64,000 nucleotides of DNA from Diphasiastrum complanatum (taxonomy: Eukaryota; Streptophyta; Lycopodiopsida; Lycopodiales; Lycopodiaceae), in contig CM055098.1 of the NCBI GenBank assembly GCA_029204225.1, positions 5,387,246-5,451,245 of the forward strand, written 5' to 3'. Made by a program: the position numbers and the translations under genes. Below, piece by piece: positions 39,075-56,101 of the stretch. The notes under the pieces are model-generated. The model saw only the letters and a program-made list of their open reading frames with translations, was not told the DNA's origin and ran no database searches. Each line of letters starts with the position of its first letter. The stretch's first letter is position 1.

Positions 39075-41495
39075 TCATGGAGCAAATGCTGCGCATGATT
39101 GGTTCATTTGAGGAAATTAGAGAGGATGTTGTCAGACGAGGTGTGATCATGGTTTCTTGCCGATGTGCCAATTGTAGAGGCCTGGAATTTATGTCCCTTG
39201 ATGTAATTGAAAAGCATTTGTTGAGAAGAGGCTGGTCAACATTAAAAAAAAAAAAAACCAAAGGATAATGCAAAGGTATCATACTAAACTATGCATTATT
39301 AATGTACTAGAAACTTGGTATGTTATTGATTTTAGAAATTAAGCATTTGGCCTTTTGTGAAATATCTTTTACTAACTTTTCTAAATCGTCTTGTACATGT
39401 CTTTATCATTTGTCTCCTGATAGTATATGTTAATGCTATACTCCATCACATGATGGCAAGAATTGAGTTGATATACCTCTATGATGTGATTCCTCTCAAA
39501 GTGACAACATACGATATTTTTAAATAGACAAAAGCACACGCGACATGGAGTAGTAGTCACCCACGTAAAAAGAAGGACGATCCTTCAAAAGTAACGGGTT
39601 GGAAAAGACTATCTATTTTGTATAGTTTATCATATTGGTAGGTATATGTAATTTCGTCTTAATATGAGTTACACAATAGTTAATATTTCGGTTTGTGTTT
39701 ACATGTGCATGTACATCATCATACAATCTAACAATATTAGTATGTGTATGTGGCATGTACAACATCTTCTGATTCGAAATACATTGGATGTTATGCATGT
39801 GAAAAAGAATGTAGCCGAAAATATTCTAAAAACTATTCTTAGAATGGGTGACAAAGATTCAATCAAAGTGCGGGAAGACATGAAAGAGCTCGGCATTAGA
39901 CAATCTCTCTGGCCAAGGAGATGTGAAAATGATACGAAGAAGATTTTTTTGCTGTATGCACCATACACATTCACAAAGCCAGAAAAAGAGACATCTTTTC
40001 AATTGTAAAATATATGAAAACTCCGACAGGATGTAGTGCCTTTATGAGAAAACACATTGCAGGGTTTTTTATACTCAACTTATTCTATTGCATGTTATAA
40101 CTCAACTATGCAAACCTCATTGTGCCTAATTGGTGTCTCGTACACATGTTATATTGATACCAATTGAATGTATCATTCTTGTTTGAAATAGACAGAAAGC
40201 TTAAGAGCATGAAAACTCACGACTATCATGTCTTCATGCAACAAATACTTCCAGTGGCTGTACGTTGCGGCATATCTGACATAGCACGAGCTGGCATTTT
40301 AAAGATTAGTCATTTTTTTCAAATTATATGTGCACGAACTATAGACCCATCAGAACTAGAATCTCTACAACTAGAAGTGGTTGAGGCACTTTGTGTTTTA
40401 GAAAGATCTTTTCCACCATCATTTTTTGATATTATGACACATCTTGTTGTCCATGTTGTAGAGGATATTAGAATTTGTGAGCCTATTAGTTTGTGATGGA
40501 TGTATCCATTCTAAAGAATCATGAAACTTTTAAAACAATATGTGAAAATTTTAGCAAGGCCAGAGGGTTGTATGGCGGAAACTTATGCAATTGAAGAGGC
40601 ACTTGGCTTTCAAACAGAATACATCCAAGCCTATGAAGGTACTTCTCATAGAGTATGGGATGGAGAAGAAGATCCACGAATGAACAGTGTGGTTCCTAAA
40701 GGAAAAAGGCACAATCTTTTATCTTGATTCAGTAATTGAAGATATTATCTTGACGTTTCATTTATTTTCACGCTTTGTCATGAAATTAATATAATTCGCT
40801 ATTTTTTCTTTTGAATACTAGGTAAATGAACTCGATGAAGCAGGCGAGATGCTAGATTCCATGTTGATTGATTTGGCAACAGGACCAAAGCACCGTGCAA
40901 CATCATATTCAGGTCTCTGGGTGAATGACTATCATTTTTGTACTAGGGATGAAGATTTGAGTAAAGTAACTCAAGACAATGGTATTACAGCATGTTTTAC
41001 AACTTGGAGCCGCAGTAGTGTGAGAGACAGAAATTCTATTTCAACCAATCTTTGTAATTTGGATGGATTTGCAAAATTTTGGAAATTGAATATGGTTTTA
41101 ATTCAGTTATTCTTCTTTATGGCAAATGGGTGAAACCAAATATAGCTAGAAAGCATGCAAGCATGATGATGGACAACAATGGTTTTTGCTTGATAGATGT
41201 AACAAAAACACTCCGACAAACTAGCATGGAAGATCAGCCATTTGTTATGCCTAAGCATGTGCAACAAGTGTTTTATGTCCAGGACCCGATGGCAACGAAT
41301 TGGAATGTTGTATTGCATCATTATGCTAGGGGAACTCGTGATGGTAAGGATGAGAATAATGTCATGGATTTTTCATTGGTCGAGGACTTTTGCACGACAT
41401 CAGTAGATCTTATCGTGGATGAAGAGGAATGTACATCTTGTGTGGATATTGTTGAAGGACATGTTATCGATCTCCTCACAAGATCCCCAAAGTAG
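39075..41495 (+). pseudogene. CACTA transposase gene, TNP2-like with DUF4216, decayed
   Basis: Exon-like pieces align in order with plant CACTA transposases. At 39075-39268 is an N-terminal piece with a CRCANCRG cysteine module. At 39740-40008 lies RNTLDVMHVKKNVAENIL with MKELGIRQSLW, the end of the TNP2 domain. At 40190-40500 lies MKTHDYHVFMQQILPVAVRC followed by PPSFFDIMTHLVVHVVEDI. At 40521-40727 lies ARPEGCMAETYAIEEA. At 40822-41495 is the DUF4216 part (SYSGLWVNDYHF, then VFYVQDPMATNWNVVLH). The central TNP2 catalytic part between 39270 and 39740 is missing, and there are a few in-frame stops and frame changes, so the copy cannot make a transposase. Right-end subterminal repeats follow at 42250-43038. 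Confidence 0.8.
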
Positions 41496-43054: not shown

Positions 43055-44385
43055 TCAGAGTGGTATCAGAACATAGCTCAAATAAACCGAGAGATTAAGT
43101 TTATTCTATTTGTATACAGTTATCATGTTTCATATAGGTAGCTCTTCATCTTCATCACTGAGTGAAGCTAGAGTCATGGACAAGTTCAATGGTTCTAACT
43201 TCTACATTTGGAAGTTAAAACTTAGAATGATTTAAAAAAATAGAGATCTTTGGGATGTAGTAGAAGGTACATACCTGAAACTAGAAGATGGTGATCAAGC
43301 AAAGGCTTGGAGGATAAAAAATCAGAAGGTCTTAGCATGTATCACGCTCAATCTGGCCGACTCCCAAATACCTCATATTACCACGTGCAAAACCTCTAAG
43401 GAAATAATGGATTTGTTATCAAGCCTTTATGAGACTCACGATGTAACCATGAGATTACATCTTAGGAGGAAGTTCTTTACTCTTAGTATGTCTGATTCTA
43501 CTACCATCACATCTCACATCAACAGCTTCAAATCCATGTTAACTGTAGGATGTTCTATTCAAGATGATGATGCCGTCATGACCTTGTTTTCTTCTCTTCT
43601 GAAGTCCTATGAGCACTTTGTGGTGATGATCTCTATACAACCCGACCTCACTTTTCAAAAGGTGATCGGTCATCTTCTTCAAGAAGAAATACGGAGAAAA
43701 ACTAGCCGCTTGTCCATCAAAGACAAATCCATGGCTCTATACACTAAGAAGAAAGATTATTTCAAGGGCAAGAATCAAGTGCAGCAGCAACAACAGAAGC
43801 CTCACACTCAAAGTGAGCATGGTGGATCGCGCAAGAAGCTTTTCTGCAGATATTGCAAAAGAGCTAATCACGACATCAAGGAGTGTCGCATCAGGATCTA
43901 CAACAAGGCAGAGAGGCAACAACAGCAGCACCCAGACTTCTTGTTAATGGCTTACAGCAGCAACGAAGACTGTAATAGCCGGACAGTGGCGCTACCGAAC
44001 ACATTGATCTCTCACAATGAGTGGTTTACGGAGTATTCAACTTACAACAGAGGCCAATTTATCTACTTCGGAGATTCTAGCACCATACGCATGAAAGGCA
44101 AAGGAGCAGTGAAGATCAGCTTCAACAACGATATGTCCATTTGTGTTCCTAATGTCCTTCATGTTCCTCAGTTGTCAAAGAACCTGTTATCAGTCTCTAA
44201 GATAACTGATGAGGGCTACACTGTTACTTTCTCATCTGAGTAGTGTACAATACTCGAGGAAGATACTCCTCTGACTACATGCACTAGAGTCGGAAATCTT
44301 TACATACTCTCTAATTCAGTTGCATTAGCTAGTATCTCTAATGAAAATGTAAACGGCGGTGTTGTCTTTAGAGGAGTTCTCAATA
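43055..44385 (+). mobile_element. Ty1/copia gag fragment with primer-site-like start
   Basis: TGGTATCAGAAC near 43071 resembles an initiator-Met primer site. Gag begins with MDKFNGSNFYIWKLKLRM near 43176. It continues through a UBN2-type core to the knuckle CRYCKRANHDIKEC near 43848, then a protease-like segment and the gag-pre-integrase start to about 44385. The open frame covers most of gag, with few interruptions. Integrase and RT are absent. The CACTA right end lies about 30 bases before the primer site. Confidence 0.8.
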
Positions 44386-44814
44386 TCAAAAAGACCCTTT
44401 GTAAAAATACTTTTATTTTTTTTCTTTAGTTTCGACCGTCACCAGGCCCAATCAAAATGCACAGATTTGAAATCTATGTAACATAGTTCAAATTAACTAA
44501 AAAATGAAAATGCAATGTAGAAAACTTTGAAATTTGTGTCCGGGCAGCATGGACGTATCCCATTGGTTTCTTCTTCCTGTCCGATGTCAATACCTCAAAT
44601 TAAATTTACTTGACTATGCTGGTTAGTATAATGAAATTTTCTAACTATACTAGTTACAGTTATAGAAATATAGTATGTACAGTTACATAAAATATGGTAT
44701 ACGCAGTAACTGTGACTTTGTTGGCATTCACATTAGATTAAATGTGATACGAAAAATTGAAATTAAGTATCATATTAGAGAGATTTTTGGTGCCCAGGCT
44801 TTGAAAATAGCAAT
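44386..44814 (+). other. Upstream part of the following gene, unresolved
   Basis: Probably holds 5' exons or introns of the plus-strand gene that becomes readable at about 44815. A candidate start at 44549 (GGCAGCATGGAC) with a donor near 44622 is possible but does not lead to a convincing next exon. Confidence 0.3.
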
Positions 44815-46176
44815 GGCAAAGAGACCCAGATCTACAATCGAGTCTGCGATTCTTTACAATGAGAAAGATGAAGCTGATAACTGGAAGCCAACAAAATATA
44901 CGAAGAACTCATGGGTATTGCTACATCCATCATCAAAGGCCAATTTTCGACAAAAGAAAAAAACAAAAATGACTTACAAATCTTATCGGAAAGCAAAAAT
45001 TTTGGAGTTTAAGACTATCCCGGGAGGTCAATTTATATCATAAGTCTTAGTACAACATGTATATATGCATTTAGAAATCAAAGTACATGATATCAATCCT
45101 CATGATCATCAAAAATGTAATTGTAAGTATATCAAAACATATGCACTCTACAACAATCATAGGTGATTTTTTTTATTGATGCTCTTCAGATTATGATTTA
45201 AATGCTTCAACATTGTTTTTTTCTTTCAGATTTATATCCATCATGCATAAGTGAATGGGAGCCCGCACAATCACTTGTAGGAATATTAGACGTGATTCAC
45301 TCTGATGTTGGAAAGCTACAATACAGAGGAAGAAGTCCAAAGGAACTTACAGATTGTGGTATCTATTTTTATGAATCTTTATATATGCCACAAATAGATG
45401 GAAGTTTTGCATTGCCTAGTTTTCAAAGTGATGAGTGGCCTACTCCTGACAGCATTGTTTCTGAATCCTTGAGATGCAAGCTACTCATTGATATTAGAAA
45501 TGCTATGAAGATAAGCACAGGCTCGAAAATTGTTCACCTAAGTTGGTTTATCTCATTACATATATTTGTTGATTTTTTCTCGAGTGCTAGTGTTCGTAGG
45601 ACACCAACTTTATTTGTTTGCAAGGATTTATCAGACGAGACTTTGTCAGATCTCATGGATCAAGGCTGGGATAGTAAAACAAATAATGACATAGAATGCA
45701 GGATTAAAAAGTCCTCAATGATCTTTTATTATCATATTGAAAAGCAAATGCTCAGTCTCACATTTAACTACCAGAGATACAAAAAAATTGAAGGTACATG
45801 GCTACCACTGGATCAAGACTTTGAACTAAATGGTCACACAAACCGAATGGAGATAAGCATTATTTACAATGAGAAATATTTGACTATGGTTGAGGTGGAA
45901 GAGCATTGGAAGCTTGATTTTATCAAAACAGAGCTCATGCTATTACAAACCAATCTACCAACAATTCATCATCAATGGAAGACTCGTAAGTACTTTAGGT
46001 TTATTGCCATTTCAAAATAGAACAAATCAATAGAAAATGTCATCATTTACAATTGCACATTCACTAATATTTGCCATGTCATAGATGCGAAAAAGATAGG
46101 AGCTGATAATGTGCTGCAAAGATCTACCTACAACAATTACCATTGTGGGAGAACAATAGTTTCAAATAAACTTTAG
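44815..46176 (+). CDS. Unrecognised multi-exon protein, first gene of the 44-51 kb cluster (5' end unresolved)
   Basis: Three exons join in phase. The first runs from about 44793-44815 to 45026 (ends GGGAG before GTCAAT, phase 1). The second is 45230-45985 (acceptor TTTCTTTCAG, donor GTAAGTAC, phase 1). The third is 46085-46176 (acceptor TGTCATAG), ending with TAG. About 360 codons are open with no internal stop, unlike the neighbours. The first part is Lys/Arg-rich (FRQKKKTKMTYKSYRKAK). The second has an LVGILDVIHSDVGKLQYRG segment and several aromatic-rich strands. I recognise no domain. AATAAA near 46206 could serve as the polyadenylation signal. The gene is convergent with the H3-Ulp1 gene, whose stop lies about 180 bases away. 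Confidence 0.6.
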
Positions 46177-46354: not shown

Positions 46355-48150
46355 TTAATTTAATATAACTAAATCATCCTTTGCCCCATCATCAATAACG
46401 GGAGGCTGAAGCCTTGCCCTAGCCAATATACTCAAGATAATTTCTTGTCTAAATCTGTACACTTGGCTTGATGTGTACTCAAGAAGTGTAAACTGCAAAA
46501 TAGAACATTCATGTATTAGTAATGGCCAAAAACATCAACAAAGTAGAAAACTAATCATGATTTTAAAATAAGAATAAACAAAATTTATTACCTTAGAAAT
46601 ATCAACATCTTGCTGAAGGTTGAACCACTCAAAAAATAACTTTGCATTGTATAATGTGTACCACCCACAGCTGAATGAATCATTTTGCTGGGGTGACTAC
46701 AAAATAATTCGACACACAATAAATCAATTATGAAACAAAATGAATTAGAATGAAACAATTACATTAGAATACTGATTTCAAAATGCTATTAAGAAAGATA
46801 GAGTTTACCTCCAAACTGACGATCTGCCAATCCACGGAATGGAGAACATTTGTAAGAATATATTTACTTAGATATGGAAGTTATATATCTACATCCTTAT
46901 GCGTATTTCTTGCCGAATTCATCTTGACACAAAAACCATTAATAATATTATCTACAGATCTCTTAATAGAGATCAGGTTTAAACTCCAGTGGTCACTGCA
47001 AAATAAGATTGAAATTTCTTTAGCTGCAATTCTGAGAACTATTTCCATTGACAATGCCAATGTTAATGCATAAAACAACAAGAAGCATTTAATATATCTT
47101 ACTTCGTATGATAAGGGATGAGTAGATACTTTGTTGCTGGTGTGAATCCACTTGTCAGACACTGTGACAATGTGTCATTATTCTCCTTGAAGGCTTGAAG
47201 CAGAAAGTTACTCAGCACCAGCAACTCATTGGATGAATCTCTTGCAATGTCATATTGCAAGAGTGTAAGCTCGAACTCTATCATAGGATCACTGATAGAA
47301 GCCCGTCTGTCTTTGAGATCCAAGCAATCTAGAACTCTAAAATTAATACTAAAATCAAGTTCATCTAGTCTAAAACAAAAAGGAGTACCAATTGTATCTA
47401 TAGCATCGGATATGTCTTTATCAAATTTAAGATAATCATCCGAATCTATATATGTATAAAAATTTGGAGGAGGAGGAGGAGGAGGAGGTGGTGGATGTGT
47501 AGTATCTACAGGAATTAAAGGGGTATCCAAAATAAATGTAGCTATATTTACAACATTATCAACAACAATATTATCTACAATGGATTCCGGATTAGGCTTC
47601 ACAGAATCTGTGGTGTCTACCCTCCTTACTTTCTTCGAAGCTCTCTTGGGGACTGTCTGCTTCCTAGGACGCTTCGTAGGAAGATCAGTCCTATCTAGAG
47701 GAGTTGGTCTAGGAGAAGCAGACTGAGATACGTGTAACCTACAATACCTATTCCTCATTCTCATCAGGAGCTGAAAATCCTTGGGCATTATGGTGACTCT
47801 CTTGGAATGGATTGCAAGCAAAAAAGAATCCTAAAAAAAAAGGCTAATGTAATCTTCAGCAGCCTCCTGAAGGCATTGAAGAGCACTGGGTGTGAATCTA
47901 ACTAGCTGTCCGAGATTATTTCTTGTTATGTTTCGGACAACATGGTAGAATGGAGCTCTTGGGATCAACAAAGTTGTTGATCTCTGATACTTGCGTATCT
48001 CAGAGAGCCACCTGCTGCGGTTGTGCGTTCTAGGTCTAGCAGGTGGTGTAATGGCAACCGCAGGGGCTGAGGATGAGCCAGGAGAGAAGAAGTCTCTCCT
48101 TGTCTGCTTTCTCCTATCCGTGGATGTGTACTATGGAATAGCAGACTTGT
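46355..48150 (-). pseudogene. Histone H3-like fold fused to a Ulp1/C48 cysteine protease
   Basis: Four exons on the minus strand join in phase: A about 48150-47103, B 46995-46809 (TTTTGCAG before, GTAAAC after), C 46696-46592 and D 46492-46355, ending with TAA. Exon A encodes a histone H3-like fold at about 48030-47755: SRWLSEIRKYQRSTTLLIP, then LQEAAEDYI, then LAIHSKRVTIMPKDFQLL. In the same frame a basic linker (TKRPRKQTVPKRASKKVRR) and a run of ten prolines lead into the protease. Ulp1 signatures are NDHWSLNLI (exon B, His 46989-46991) and SPQQNDSFSCGW (exon C, Gln six residues before Cys 46667-46669). The residue 17 after His, normally Asp, is Asn. Two in-frame stops (47831-47833 in the H3 part, 46881-46883 in exon B) suggest a decaying copy. 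H3 packs DNA and Ulp1 proteases cut SUMO-like conjugates; the joint role is unknown. Confidence 0.7.
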
Positions 48151-48954: not shown

Positions 48955-49560
48955 ATGGCCTCTTCCTCATGATCCTCACGAGATTCGGGTTTGAGTTCAT
49001 TTCTTAGTGAATTTGGGATTACTGAAAACCTAGACTACTTCCACAGCCTATTCAAGCCATATCTACATGTTTTCAGGACTGTACAACCAAATTCTGACAT
49101 ATTTTATGAACATTATGTTAGATTCAGAGATATACTTAGTAAGCCTGTTTTCTCCATAGGTCCACTCCAATACATGCATTATACTGATCTTGTTCATTTC
49201 TTCCCAACTTTCATACATAGACTGGATAGAATGTTCACCAAATTGTTTGATCTTTTCAAAAGCAGGTCAATGTGTCCGTATTGCAACAAGAAATGTCGAT
49301 TGGTTGAATATCAGAGTGGTTTCGTATTTTTTCTGTTAGTTCAAATTTCAGATGATGAGGAAGTTTCTGTTGCTGACCCTCCTTTTGCATCATCCGCTGT
49401 TCAGTCAGCTATTAAGGATATCAGTCACTTTCTTATTGACACTCCTGATAAGGAAAGTGACTTTATTGATGTAAATACTGATGTTCTCCGGGATTCTTTT
49501 ATTGGCCAAAATACATCTGATGATGAATCCATTGGGTATTTCTCCTCTCTTGTTCAATGA
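48955..49560 (+). CDS. Unrecognised single-exon protein, third gene of the cluster
   Basis: The frame starts at ATG 48955 in a good context (CTGCCATGGCC) and ends with TGA at 49558-49560, about 200 codons. Codon six is TGA, after which the frame stays open. A later in-frame start would give about 189 codons. Visible features are an aromatic helix-rich N-terminal half (FHSLFKPYLHVFRTV), a CPYCNKKC cysteine module near 49275 that could bind zinc, and an acidic C-terminal half. I recognise no family. It diverges from the H3-Ulp1 gene and converges with the transposase-like gene, stop to stop only 62 bases apart. Confidence 0.5.
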
Positions 49561-49622: not shown

Positions 49623-51220
49623 TCATCTAATTTTCTCTTCCTGTATGAACTTGCATGCTTTTCTAAACTTGTTGTATTGTGTGGACTTTGTTATATGTCG
49701 AATCTGAACTCTGCGGTGGAACCACTAAAACAATTGACAAATGTAGTTTCGTTTTTCATTGGTTCCTCCATGTTGTGTATTTCGATGAAATGCTGCTCGT
49801 GCTTGCCAGTGTGACTTCTCCATCCCATGTGATGACTATACACTCAAGCTTCCATATGTATTTGCAAAAAATGTTGTATGATCTCTTAGTATGTGCTGCA
49901 TATGTCAAAATCGTAATGTTAGTCTTATGTTTGGATCTAAATATTTATGAAAATTTGAAAGCATTTTGAAAATTTTATACTAACCATGTAATGAGTGATG
50001 TGATCTTCTCCCCATGCTTTTGGTACTGCATTAACAAACTCGACACAAGTCCTTTGGACAGCTTTCTTATCAATATCAGAGTATTTTTCTTTTCTTAAAA
50101 TAGCAATCATACTATCAGGCTTTTTCCATACATCAACTTTTAGTACTCTGGTTTTGCCGTCTTTCTCGAAGTCCTGAGTGGCAACAATAATATCTGTACA
50201 GACTGAGTGTTGAATATTAGAAGCCTTACCAGTATGATTTGATAGGAAATGATGTGCTTTTGCTCCTCCTATGCTTGGCTTAGTTGGCATGTTCCCATTC
50301 TTTCCTGAAAGCTTTTCATCTTTTTGAATTTTGACATGTCCTTTACGGAGTCCTGCTTTTGATAAAACATCTTCTAATCGAGAGATAGCTTCCTTTGCTA
50401 ATGATGTTGGCTTAGTTTTCCAAGCAAAAACTATATAAAGATAAATGATCTTTTCTACCAATCTAACTTCTACATGAAGAGTGCAAACATGCACATTTTA
50501 TAAGGAGATAGGCAGCACAGGCTTCCAGTCTGGATCTGCATATTCTCTAGTAATTCCTGTACTCCTAGTTACATCTTTTGCCATTTTCATTCAATACAAA
50601 CAAGGGTGTTTTGATGTAGCACCGTGAGAGACATTATACATACATTTCAATGTTTTCAAATCACCTGCTAAGTGCCATTCAACATTGAAGTCTCCAACTC
50701 CTGGAACATTGAGAAGTCCTCCATCCATATGGTCCTTGATGATCCTAGGATAAGATGTCCTTGAGAATATAGATGATAATATATCATGATCCTCTTTCAG
50801 CACCTGTCCAAAGGATTAATCAGACTTAGTTTACAATGTACTAATACTATTCAATGAATGTAATGTAATAATGAGACTAGTTACCTGAAACACTGCCAAC
50901 CACCATATATCATTTTCTGACTGGACACTGAGTCTGAAATCTTCTTGGTTCTCTGTTTGTGATAGAGCACCATTCATGAGAGTTATACTAACCCTCTCCA
51001 TCTTCTGCCCTTTCACAATTTCTGACTCATCTAACTTAAGTACTATGATTATTTTGCCATTCACCTTTTCATAGGTCATATCATAGAATGTGACAATGTA
51101 TCTCAACAAGTAATTTAGATCAATAAATGAATTGTTTGATAAATTATAGAATATCGATCTTCCATCAGTTTCATATACCTCCTCAATATGAAATGGAGTT
51201 CCAGTGATATTATGCATACC
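49623..51220 (-). pseudogene. DDE transposase-like gene, unfamiliar family, 5' end missing
   Basis: Exons on the minus strand are about 51220-50885 (donor GTAACT), 50803 to about 50540-50490 (acceptor TTTGGACAG), 50430-49985 (donor GTTAGT) and 49895-49623 (acceptor CATATGCAG), ending with TGA. Three acidic sites are spaced as in RNase H-fold transposases: KLDES (Asp 51029-51031), HLAGDLKTLK (Asp 50660-50662) and SSHGMEKSHW (Glu 49818-49820). ATSKHPCLY after the second Asp recalls the Cys-bearing insertion of several eukaryotic DDE families. TQHGG and a WF-type end follow the Glu. Assigning DDE residues is inference from pattern and order. I see three in-frame stops; one replaces an expected Cys and one an expected Trp. 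The N-terminus is lost at the copia LTR junction near 51236. Confidence 0.6.
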
Positions 51221-51239
51221 TATGTTTAATGTATCTCTC

Positions 51240-51618
51240 TTTGTTCAAGTGATATGTCCTAGGGATTGGGACTTTATATCTCCACTGTGTGAAGTTTACA
51301 AGATAGCTAAATAGAGAATTACAAGAGTAGTTAACGCTAATCAACTAGTTAGTTATTCTCCGTTATTGCTAACTCTTTCAGCTGAGCGTGAAGTACAAGA
51401 CACCATGTCCGTTGAACTGCTAGCTGGCAGTGCAAATTGGTTTCTTTCATTTTCTTTTTGTTTCATGTCTTTTGGTCCTCAAGGTATGTTTGACTTTCGC
51501 GAATTGTTCGTCATTCGACCTTCACTTCATTTTGTGCTTTAGGGTTTTCGAGGTATGTTTGTTCTTCGATCTTCGCTTCGCTCCGTGACAAAGTTACAGG
51601 AGTTCACAATTCCTGACA
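51240..51618 (-). mobile_element. 3' LTR of the minus-strand copia element
   Basis: On the minus strand a GGTTCAAGAGGGAG polypurine tract precedes TGTCAGGAATTGTG, the LTR start at 51618. The far edge lies near 51240-51250 and is not exactly placed. RNase H end sequence (VDLLTKPLNKPLFAKQ) lies just before the polypurine tract. Confidence 0.75.
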
Positions 51619-51803: not shown

Positions 51804-52450
51804 TGTGAAAAATACAGATCCTAAGTGGATCTAAACTCCAAGATCATTGGCTTGAATGCTTGCACTCCAAACTACATAAGCTAGGAATTGGCAACACATT
51901 CTATGCTACCTAGAATGCAAAGAACTTGATCAAAAAGCATTTATCACAAATGGAAACTTCCATAAACATCAAGTGTGGCCCAAAATAGCATTATACAGTC
52001 CATAATACATCAGCCTATCACTTTTGGAAAGAACCTAAGATCATACACACAAAGCTTGAACTCAATCACTACACAATGCCAACAATGGAAGGAGAACCCA
52101 ATAGAAAAATCTCTCATTAAGCAAATGAATACAATGGATCTGCTCCAACCTGTTTCTCCACGGCCTACCTGCTATATATAGCTGAGAGAGATGACTCTCT
52201 CTCCTCTCTCTAGACCCTCCTTACCTAAAATATGCCCTATATAGGTAAAATTGGCATATATGTCCAAAATACATGAAAATGGACTCATTTCGAAAGTCTT
52301 GAAGTTTGACACTTCTTCATACTGAAAAAATACACTTACTAAAAATATCTAGACCTGTTTCACACGTGTGAAAAGTCAGATCCTAAACTATGTGCCATTT
52401 TTAGCAATTTTGGCCTAAAACTAGACAAGGAAATGTTGACAATTTTCACA
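51804..52450 (-). mobile_element. LTR of the Gag-only element
   Basis: 647 bases from TGTGAAAAATAC to AATTTTCACA. The first 178 bases are almost identical to the truncated LTR at 63372-63550. A TATATATAG box lies near 52172 (plus-strand reading). Confidence 0.85.
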
Positions 52451-52463
52451 CTCCCTCTTCAAC

Positions 52464-55400
52464 TTAACTTGCTAGTTTTACAACACTACTTTGTTCCAAC
52501 TTAAGAATGATCTCCATCATCAGAATAGATCTCTTCTCAAGGATCCTAATATGTACAAAATAGGACACAACATAATTGATATAGATAATAGTGTCCATAT
52601 AGGATGCTTCACTATTTCTTACATCAATTTTACATAGAATCATAAAAATGGTACATGTAAAAGAACATAGAATCTCAATTAATGAATTCCTCCATGTATC
52701 CATCTCTGGTTTCTCTGTAAAATAGCAGCAAACAATTTGTAAATGAAAGTGATCAACAAGTGTTTGCATGCCTCCTCCACATTTCACTATACATATAGTG
52801 AATGCAACATGTATCTCCATGAATGAACTTCCATCACCACCTTGCCTTTGTAGATCTTCAATCCATGAAAGCCTTTGAGTGAATGAATGCCAAAAAGATG
52901 TGTTCCCTACTCCATTTGAATGACCAAAACCTGAACTTGAAATACTTGAAGTACCTCCACAAGATTTGCACACAACGCTTGATCCTACAATGTCAACAAG
53001 TTGCCAATTTGCCAACACTAGAATACTAGATCTTGAACTTTGTTCAAAAGAAAACATATTGACCACTTCAATACCTTTCAAGATCTGAATGAATTCATGT
53101 ACTTGATCATACAAACCAGCAATGATAACTATTCCATCTCCAAGATCCAAAGGATGCAAAACTATGGAACTAGTTTTATTGAAATTTGACAATTTCAACA
53201 CATTGACATAACAATGTTCATACATGAGATTAGGCAAGTGAGGTAGAGTAAGAAGACACTTCCTTGCAGCTCCAAAGACCTTACTTGAACCTTCAAGAAC
53301 CTGTAAAAACAGATCCAAAATGCCTTGACCATTTGTCTCTTCTTTGATGCTTTTCACTAGCTTCGAATTGCCACTTGTCTCTTGGTGTTGATGAAGCAAT
53401 CCAAGATCAACCTCTTGATCTTCCAATAAGACATCAAAGATCTTGCATATGTGAACATCTTCAGATCTGAAACTCTGAAGATACTCCCTCTCAAACACAT
53501 GATTAAGATCCCACAAGATCTCATCAATGCTCAAATTTGACCCTTCACTATAGTTAGTGAAAACAATGCCACCATCATAAACCAAAAGATAGATTCCAAC
53601 ATTTCCATTTAACATGAAGTAGAGTAGGTGAAGATGAGTATCAAACCTAATCAAAACAGCCCTCTTGAGTTCATAACAAACCTCAATAAGCTCACCAATG
53701 ATATCTCCCTTGCCTTGAAGAAGTTGCCACTTGAGTTGCTCCATGTAGTCTTCTTCAACCAACCTTTTGCCATCTTGACCATGAATGAACAATCCACCAC
53801 AATCATAGAATGCTTTGAGTTGATGAAGAGATGTTAGATCCATGCTTTGGATCTTCCCAAGAACCACTCTTCCATTGCCCTTTCCTTCACAAGACTCCCT
53901 CTTAATGCTAGCACCACAAAAGTTAGAAACCTCCCTCTTGATAGTTGCACCATAAGAAGTAGAAGACTCTTGAATATTAGAAGCCAAGAAAAGAATCCTT
54001 AGTACCTTCAACATAAGAGTGATTGAAGTACTCTCTCTTTTCAAACATGAACTTCTACTCAATGATTTAGGTAATGAGTCATATGATAATGATTCTTCCT
54101 CACTATCGTTCATAAAAACATCATTCAAAGTACATCCTACTTTGAACACTTCACATACTTCTCTTCCTTTTGACTTGTGATCTCCCTCACCAAGTCTCAT
54201 GATAGAAACCTTTGATCTACTCTTTTTATGAAGAAATGTGACACCACTTGTTGCACAAATGACTTTATCACAAAAAGATGTAAAAGAACCATTTCCTTCA
54301 AGCATGCTCAAAGCACCATCATCTTTTCCCACATGATTACATACATCAATATGAAAAGAATTAGAAGAACAACCATCTTCTTGCAAAGAATGACACTTAG
54401 CATCTCCATCTTTTTCCATATGAACAAACAAGTCATTAGCAACAATCACTTCCAAAGAAGAATCTTCATCAACTCCATTGATGAAGTTAGCTCCTTCCTT
54501 ACCTTTTCCATTTTTGCACTTGCCATCTAGCACCATTGAAGAACCAACAAGCCTTGGAAGTACATGAGTAGAAGAGTACAAACATGATGCTAATTTAGCT
54601 CCACATGACTCCATTTGACTAGTAGGTAGCACTAGTCCATCTTCAAGATCCAATGGATCCAAAAAATTGACCATAGATTCACCAAAGCTTGCCAAGTTAG
54701 CACAACAATTATCATCTCCAAGAAGTACATTAGATCTCAACCTAGATCTAGCATTTTGTTTCTTATGGCATTCATTTGCAAAATGTCCTTTCACTCCACA
54801 ATAAAAACATTTGAACTTGGACTTATCTTGCTTCCTACTTTGCAAAGAAGAAGAATGCTTTCCATGCTCCAAACTACCTTGCTTGGACCACTTGCCTTTG
54901 AACTTGCCCTTTGTGAAAAGAGCTTCTTCATCTCCACCTTGTGTTGATGCACCACCACCTTTGGCTTGCAACCTATGCTCTTCAGCCACCAAGATCTCTT
55001 GCAAGTCATTGACACTTGGCAAGGACTTTTGTATAGCAAAGCATTGTACAAGGTTAGAATGTTCATCAAGCAAACCATTCAACATGACTTGAACTAGTTC
55101 CCCATCCTTTATGCTTTCATCTATGCATGCTAGATCATCATTCAAGGATTTAACCTTCAAGACAAATGAATGTGCACTCTCTCCCTCTCTTTGACAACTT
55201 TGGAAGATTTGCCTTCTTAGGGTGAGAACCCTAGATGTGGATTTGGACTCATAGATCTTCTTCAAAGCATTCCATGCTTCACTTGAAGAAGTACATTTAC
55301 CAACTTCTTTAAGAAGTTCATTGGTAACATTCATCTTTATGATATGTAAGGCTCTTTTAGCCCTTCTATCAAAATTTAGTTGCTCTTGAAGAATTAGAGG

Positions 55401-55604
55401 TCTTTCTTCAACTCCCACAACTATATCCATTAGCTCATTCAACTCTAGTAAAGACTCCATCCTCACTTTCCAAGTTGAATAGTTTGTAGAGTTTAACCTC
55501 TCTTTAGCTTCCAACATGATTCCACCATTGGATGTCATGATGCTAAAATCTTCTTGTGTCCTTAGGCTCTGTTCTAATGCACCTAGCACTCTCCTTTCTC
55601 TCAA
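52464..55604 (-). mobile_element. Long Gag frame of the Gag-only element with a large C-terminal extension
   Basis: One uninterrupted frame of 1046 codons. Residues about 23-215 form a copia-type Gag core (LNSTNYSTWKVRMESLLELN at 38-57, then the UBN2-like LRRQIFQSCQREGESAHSFV). A CCHC zinc knuckle, CFYCGVKGHFANEC, lies at residues 266-279. The real start is probably Met 23. Residues about 280-1046 match no protease, integrase or RT pattern I know. They are Ser- and Asp-rich at first, then mixed hydrophobic, with no obvious membrane or coiled-coil layout. The frame stops 14 bases before the LTR, next to the polypurine tract. Confidence 0.85.
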
Positions 55605-56050
55605 TAAATGAAGAAGGAGAAGATCTTAAAAGATTTAGAACCCTAAATGACCTCTATCTTGAAACTATTTGGCTTTCAAGCATAGAAAGGAAGATTGAAA
55701 ACACATGCAACACTTTGCACACACTAAGAATGGATTACAAACTCAAACCAACCTGAACACACTCTTGCTTAAGCTCTCAAACTTTCCAGCAAGTGACCAA
55801 ATCAAGTTATGGTGTGAAGAGTTACTTGCATTCTTAGAAAATACCCAAAACTAGGATGCCAAGATTACCTAGTAATGAACAAACTTGATCAACATATGAT
55901 CAACACACTAAGATATTGATTCAACCTGTAAAACCACATGTAAACCACACTTCTAAAAGTTTATAAACTCCAGCAAGTGATAAATACAAGATTTAGAGGT
56001 GAATGAATGAGCACACTTAGTGAATCACAAGACTAGCTTCACTATCTTGT
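55605..56050 (-). other. Leader region of the Gag-only element
   Basis: Untranslated sequence upstream of the long frame. It shares phrases such as TTCCAGCAA and AGAGTTACTT with 62806-62900, the leader of the second copy. A primer site is not visible here. Confidence 0.6.
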
Positions 56051-56101
56051 CAATTTTGGCCTAAAACTAGACAAGGAAATGTTGACAATTTTCACATATG
56101 T

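Follow-up and report, generated by a model that had tools for sequence, protein, structure and literature searches.

Can a mobile element carry a histone fold and a protease-like domain in one and the same gene, and what might such a protein do for it? This question is raised by a stretch of 64,000 nucleotides from Diphasiastrum complanatum (assembly GCA_029204225.1, contig CM055098.1, forward strand, positions 5,387,246 to 5,451,245; hereafter the window), for which a first-pass annotation had proposed an H3-like histone fold fused in frame to a Ulp1-type cysteine protease. The gene almost certainly belongs to a four-gene DNA transposon with terminal inverted repeats (TIRs) and connects an H3-like tail and H3 fold, by way of a linker, to a Ulp1/C48-like domain. 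The fusion is real as a family trait, giving one predicted protein of 470-480 amino acids, since related copies carry it without stops, while the copy in the window itself is dead.

The fused gene in the window and in the genome

On the minus strand, positions 48121-46355 of the window read as four predicted exons with GT-AG borders, which join in frame to 483 codons, the final one being a stop:

47103..48121, minus strand: exon A of the fused gene with tail, H3 core, linker and Ulp1 start (from Pfam and homology)
48121-48011, minus strand: H3-like tail part of exon A
48010-47738, minus strand: H3 core part of exon A
about 47380-47103, minus strand: start of the Ulp1 domain within exon A
46809..46995, minus strand: exon B with the DHW motif and the catalytic His, interrupted by a TAA at 46883-46881
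46592..46696, minus strand: exon C with the Gln and Cys of the Ulp1 active site
46355..46492, minus strand: exon D with the C-terminus and the stop codon

Exon A alone thus carries the H3 core, the linker and the first Ulp1 part in a single frame, and the proposed arrangement of an H3 core, a same-frame linker and a Ulp1 domain over four phase-matched exons was seen in the window. Both domains were confirmed by Pfam profiles, with 58.9 bits (E 7.8e-16) for Histone (PF00125) ahead of an in-frame TAG at 47833-47831 inside the H3 part, 23.4 bits past it, which is under the cut-off of 26.4, and 34.2 bits (E 3.1e-8, cut-off 20.7) for Peptidase_C48 (PF02902) on exons B-D with an X set at the stop. 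Likewise, the reported His-Gln-Cys spacing of 64 and 6 was reproduced at residues 342, 406 and 412, and the longer loop 1 was recovered as one extra residue relative to host H3 at the expected place. The frame and both domains therefore stand as annotated, whereas an intact gene does not: the start codon is ACG, where 21 of 23 spliced copies have ATG, and together with the TAG in H3 and the TAA in exon B, all overlooked before, this marks the window copy as dead.

The trait was followed through 1.74 Gb of genome sequence, in which the window lies on piece C7. The PF00125 search gave 153 matches from the best 150 of 6325 candidates, of which 13 were near-canonical H3 at 163.7-165 bits and the others listed reached at most 109.5 bits. 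Forty loci were sampled, all chosen on H3 score and not on Ulp1: 20 divergent H3 of high rank (19 of the first 22 entries plus one ranked lower) and 20 spread by hand down the list. In the first sample, seven loci resembled the window (class I, with H3 83-88% identical, a 22-residue piece at 91% being set aside), twelve formed a class II with H3 47-49% identical to the window, and one, L013, was of a third type. The second sample comprised twelve class I and eight class II loci, two of the latter (L045, L049) being merely 66-67% identical to class II. Exon pieces of Ulp1 were found downstream of H3 in 17 of 19 class I loci (6/7 and 11/12, the exceptions being L022 and L052), and in class II they were found neither at the 12 loci of 10 kb searched with E up to 5 nor in the 8 stretches of 1.9 kb searched with E up to 0.001.

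A second search with the fused exon itself (the 335-residue exon A of L018) scored the best 120 of 9565 candidates. Every match, L018 and the window included, spans at least 304 of the 335 residues at 79-100% identity, a full span that is partly a selection effect because only the best candidates were scored. Exon A is free of stops in 24 of these 120, of which 21 are full length, and carries stops in the other 96; some of the matches resemble duplicate haplotypes. The possibility that H3 and Ulp1 parts always occur as separate genes consequently failed, given the single frame in these best 120 matches and the 17 of 19 class I loci.

Whole genes were obtained by splicing 23 copies by homology, namely the window, the 7 and 12 sampled class I loci and three copies picked for an open exon A. 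Predicted splice sites are retained in most of them, and in four of the 23 no internal stop interrupts the joined exons; two of these, L048 and L056, are sampled loci, and two, L058 and L059, are among those picked. L058 has lost its final stop codon, the third picked copy (L060) has one internal stop and many of the remaining copies are out of frame somewhere. On L048 and L058, both Pfam domains lie on one predicted protein each. PF00125 scored 104.1 bits in L018, and PF02902 33.1, 42.2 and 36.2 bits beside the window value, against the same cut-off. Genome-wide, PF02902 was of no use for counting copies, with three matches among the best 150 of 520 candidates, which we think is caused by introns splitting the domain.

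Constraint and the nature of the histone part

Over the 23 class I copies, the ratio of nonsynonymous to synonymous change (dN/dS) was 0.20 for the H3 core, 0.28 for Ulp1, 0.42 for the tail and 0.61 for the linker, with 95% ranges, bootstrapped on a third of the pairs, of 0.12-0.28, 0.20-0.38, 0.20-0.88 and 0.38-1.02, respectively. The same alignment read in two wrong frames gave 0.84/1.20 for H3, 0.63/0.97 for Ulp1, 1.31/0.71 for the tail and 0.60/0.62 for the linker. Leaving out one copy at a time among the first eight kept H3 at 0.16-0.20 and Ulp1 at 0.26-0.29. Both the H3 and the Ulp1 domain are under purifying selection. Median dN/dS was 0.81 in close pairs (dS <0.08, 29 pairs) versus 0.28 in distant ones (dS >0.24, 138 pairs), and on these figures the family can be read as an active lineage that has kept both domains, with single copies apparently falling into decay once inserted. 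For class II, dN/dS was 0.30 in the H3 core (95% 0.18-0.78; wrong frames 0.98 and 0.94) and 0.54 in the first 60 codons (0.26-1.27; wrong frames 0.93 and 0.49).

The tails differ between the classes. Class I begins with MDRRKQTRRD, having Lys 4 in 23/23 copies and Asp at residue 9 in 21/23. Class II is represented by L010:6659-7909 (minus strand) and its relatives, an unfused H3 of about 412 residues that combines the tail MARTKQTARD with a long proline-rich stretch and a C-terminal H3 fold. Among 13 loci with class II-type H3 (the 12 class II loci of the first sample and L013), a tail was seen in 12 and none was shown in L024; nine of the 12 start exactly with MARTKQTAR like host H3, and L009, L011 and L020 differ by one change each. 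Residue 9, a Lys in host H3, is Asp in nine of these tails, Glu in one (L013) and Gly in two (L015, L020). As the frame has an earlier ATG (MSEE), the class II tail may not lie at the extreme N-terminus. Neither class retains the canonical ARTKQTARKS tail and K27 region, K9 being gone in both. In a tree of H3 cores, the second H3 of L013 joins class I (97/92) and its first joins class II (86/56); the tree has several long branches, carries a program warning of false joins and includes no plant CENH3. L013:2617-7010 holds, side by side, relics of both H3 types and stretches matching either type of ORF2, another gene of the element.

Centromeric H3 (CENH3) is described by a divergent tail and a longer loop 1, and the element protein shares this trait through its own tail and the extra residue at loop 1. 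A special link to CENH3 or centromeres, hinted at in the first-pass annotation, found no support, as the scores of the H3 part are about equal, with 83.1 bits for canonical H3 and 80.6 bits for Cnp1 of fission yeast. Compared with CENH3/CENP-A, the protein is likewise an H3 divergent in its tail and lengthened at loop 1, but it is the product of a transposon gene and scores no higher against Cnp1 than against H3.

The transposon around the gene

As judged from the sequence, the window holds a decayed copy of a four-gene TIR transposon of about 8 kb, whose remains besides the fused gene are as follows:

44368..44400, plus strand: TIR on the downstream side of Ulp1, matching the left TIR of L022 over 33 identical bp, with the outermost bases changed
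44801..45960, plus strand: ORF4, interrupted in the window by one or more stops (matched by tblastn to copies of both classes)
48973..49560, plus strand: ORF2, first part only (match to other copies)
49698..51275, minus strand: pieces of a RAG1/Transib-like DDE transposase in no single open frame

The one end kept in the window lies at 44368, and similarity to other copies stops at 51275. About 1 kb of the ORF2 region found in L018 and L026 is absent from the window at 49531, and of the left 1.5 kb of L022, nothing but the TIR was found in the window. The inverted repeat terminus is CATTAGAGGAGTTCTCAATATCAAAAAGACCCTTT in class I and TTAGGGCCCTTTTTGGACTCAAAAAGGGCC in class II. TIRs at both ends were found in L018, L026, L016, L011, L012 and L027, the class I elements among them being L018, completed with L029 (8.2 kb), and L026, completed with L031 (7.7 kb). 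The two classes share homologous transposase, ORF2, ORF4 and H3 genes in a different arrangement. A BAH domain in ORF4, guessed by eye, was rejected, Pfam being empty and the structural model poor (mean pLDDT 41).

The RAG1/Transib-like transposase fold was found for a class II relative of the window pieces. The plant transposase with this fold lies at L016:5742-8208 (minus strand), and its relatives include a fern. Over 18 aligned transposases, D18, D113, H176 and H181 are invariant and C133 and C136 nearly so, and the likely last E lies in the C-terminal GMEKSH/GMERSH. The element transposase thereby shows the signature of the CACTA-Mirage-Chapaev-Transib (CMCT) transposases, C(2)C and H(3-4)H between the second D and the last E, as defined in the available part of PMC12730594. 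Searches for relatives of the transposase gave 18 pattern matches in viral_contigs and 8 in genome_contigs, none of them confirmed, near-genome records possibly being excluded.

Concerning insertion, L012, located inside a copia-like element, can be compared with a 70%-identical relative at L020:9686-9810 that represents the empty site. This one empty site suggests a putative insertion without target-site duplication; a duplication of AT or TA was considered, and neither fits. At the six elements with both ends, no 8-bp duplication of the hAT type was seen by eye. Elsewhere in the window, fragments at 39652-41495 resemble a CACTA transposase (DUF4218-like, judged by eye alone), and at 52405-56096 two identical 46-bp direct repeats flank a copia-like gag frame (52464-55625, minus strand), again by eye.

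Possible function, rival explanations and precedents

In several eukaryotes, SUMO contributes to the silencing of transposons. An anti-silencing or chromatin-targeting role of the fused protein is conceivable, if held with somewhat less than even confidence. Its H3 module would pair with host H4 and be placed in, or bound to, the chromatin of the element or of its target, with a tail that is without K9 and the ARKS/K27 context, the sites used for silencing. The protein would then deliver the Ulp1-like domain to SUMO-modified chromatin proteins, and this delivery could relieve silencing of the element or open its target. Confidence in it is raised somewhat by the Ulp1 domain present on some of the proteins with which plant transposons counter silencing. 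Taken as a whole, element identity plus this mechanism, the explanation is about as apt to be right as wrong. Of the earlier proposal of an H3-Ulp1 protein in a mobile context, the repeated and constrained gene stands, while targeting to chromatin stays conditional.

Several points weigh against such a role. In the 20 of 23 copies with a readable active site, the domain retains His in 19, the Gln of Q-x5-C in 20 and Cys in 16, but the place of the catalytic Asp, aligned to the VDS of yeast Ulp1, is Val in 20/20. Another aligner, used with the host C48 protein L035, which has the usual YDS, puts Lys or a gap there and again no Asp; other acids near this place are conserved (columns 370, 372 and 391), so that the domain might still be active. 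Because of this Val, the Ulp1-like domain may be a pseudo-protease, and the label of a SUMO-type protease, backed by profile and His, Gln and Cys, is weakened. Moreover, the linker shows no sign of constraint and is uninformative in this respect, its dN/dS being alike in all three frames (0.60-0.62). The tail is only weakly constrained in class I (0.42), and in class II no constraint on it is evident (0.54; ranges as given above), so that the K9 argument rests on residue identity and not on selection. Furthermore, the exon joins are predicted from sequence, and Kaonashi proteins, the plant transposon proteins with a captured Ulp1 domain, were judged unlikely to act on SUMO in the available part of PMC6117577.

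Among the rival explanations, the Ulp1-like part might be an inactive SUMO-binding or folding module, with only the H3 part acting, which the loss of the catalytic Asp in all 20 copies favors, all the more as host L035 keeps YDS, whereas the retention of His, Gln and Cys and the dN/dS of 0.28 speak against it; we consider this account rather unlikely. Similarly doubtful is a putative targeting factor, whose H3 module would dock the transposase complex on nucleosomes or H3 readers for site choice and have no part in anti-silencing; the H3 fold and H3-type tail in two element classes as well as the RAG1 fold of the transposase would suit it. RAG2 reads H3K4me3. An extended version of the anti-silencing idea supposes that a RAG1/Transib-like plant transposon lineage makes its own H3 variants, which keep the H3K4 context (ARTKQTAR or RRKQTRR) and carry an acid or non-lysine at K9, and since such chromatin could not be methylated at K9, it would resist silencing; in one class the Ulp1-like part would in addition bind SUMO on silencing factors or remove it, and the transposition machinery might read the K4-type tail. 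We regard this version as improbable.

Far less credible is a passenger, that is, host histone and protease genes captured by chance and without function, as in a fungal hAT element. Capture of H3 by a hAT transposon is published (PMC6710886, available part), and the 96 stop-bearing exons A among the best 120 of 9565 would agree with it, but both domains, and not the linker, are under purifying selection, and H3 is kept by each of two classes, the class II core giving 0.30 within its wide range. Passenger capture is thereby largely refuted by dN/dS with frame controls, leave-one-out and bootstrap. Hardly tenable at all is a misreading of two neighboring genes as one: the introns are indeed predictions, but H3, linker and first Ulp1 part share frame and exon, and four copies join every exon without an internal stop.

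The anti-silencing reading has its best precedent in Vandal VANC with a captured Ulp1 domain. According to the available parts of the sources, Kaonashi/KIU are plant MULE (Vandal) transposons that captured a Ulp1 domain, in some of them on the VANC anti-silencing gene (PMC13317346, PMC6117577), where its function is undefined and its sequence conserved in eudicots (PMC13317346). Like these, at least some of which escape silencing, the present element is a plant DNA transposon in which an accessory gene has retained a conserved Ulp1/C48 domain; unlike these, which are MULEs and in the main text of the review (PMC13317346) are without a histone, it has a RAG1/Transib-like transposase and its Ulp1 lies behind an H3 fold. 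VANC proteins of VANDAL strip silent marks from their own family and bind specific non-coding repeats (PMC10398659, available part). The accessory protein described here may similarly act on the silencing of its own plant DNA transposon, with the difference that its chromatin part is an H3 fold.

H3 was captured by a fungal hAT in Pseudocercospora fijiensis, with an 8-bp target-site duplication and all but the original copy inactivated by RIP (PMC6710886), and also lies in a hAT transposon of Pyrenophora (PMC3538342), as the available parts of these papers describe. Here too, an H3-like sequence travels on a DNA transposon and is multiplied with it, yet the transposase is RAG1/Transib-like, and the H3 is divergent, under purifying selection and fused to Ulp1. 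Chromatin-modifying accessory genes, encoding TET/JBP dioxygenases or SET methyltransferases, occur in DNA transposons including CMCT lineages of fungal and oomycete hosts; in contrast to the present plant element, no transposon-encoded histone is noted in the available part of that work (PMC12730594). With Peptidase C48/Ulp1-SENP (PF02902; yeast Ulp1 1euv), the element domain shares the His, Gln and Cys motifs and the profile match, and it differs in the missing catalytic Asp and the fusion behind an H3 fold.

A search for H3-Ulp1 among 5.8 billion proteins gave 28 matches of 5437 candidates, none listing PF02902, a weak negative, as only proteins of similar length with words in common can be retrieved this way. 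P0004 and P0005 scored best, helped by having two H3 domains apiece. P0001-P0003, P0008, P0014 and P0028 are H3-like proteins with long N-terminal extensions, the start of P0003 being SAP-like by eye. No H3-Ulp1 fusion was found in a literature search on transposon histones and H3-Ulp1 links covering titles and abstract starts of open-licence papers. Known before were thus Ulp1 in plant transposons and H3 in fungal ones; in these searches, limited in coverage, the two were not found joined.

The fused gene is rated as belonging among transposons with chromatin-acting helper genes. With a histone variant joined to a SUMO-protease-like domain in a constrained gene of its own, a mobile element would supply a building block of its own chromatin. 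The gene makes it possible to test directly if histone variants serve as selfish tools against silencing, and beside it a plant relative of the RAG1/Transib machinery is available for study.
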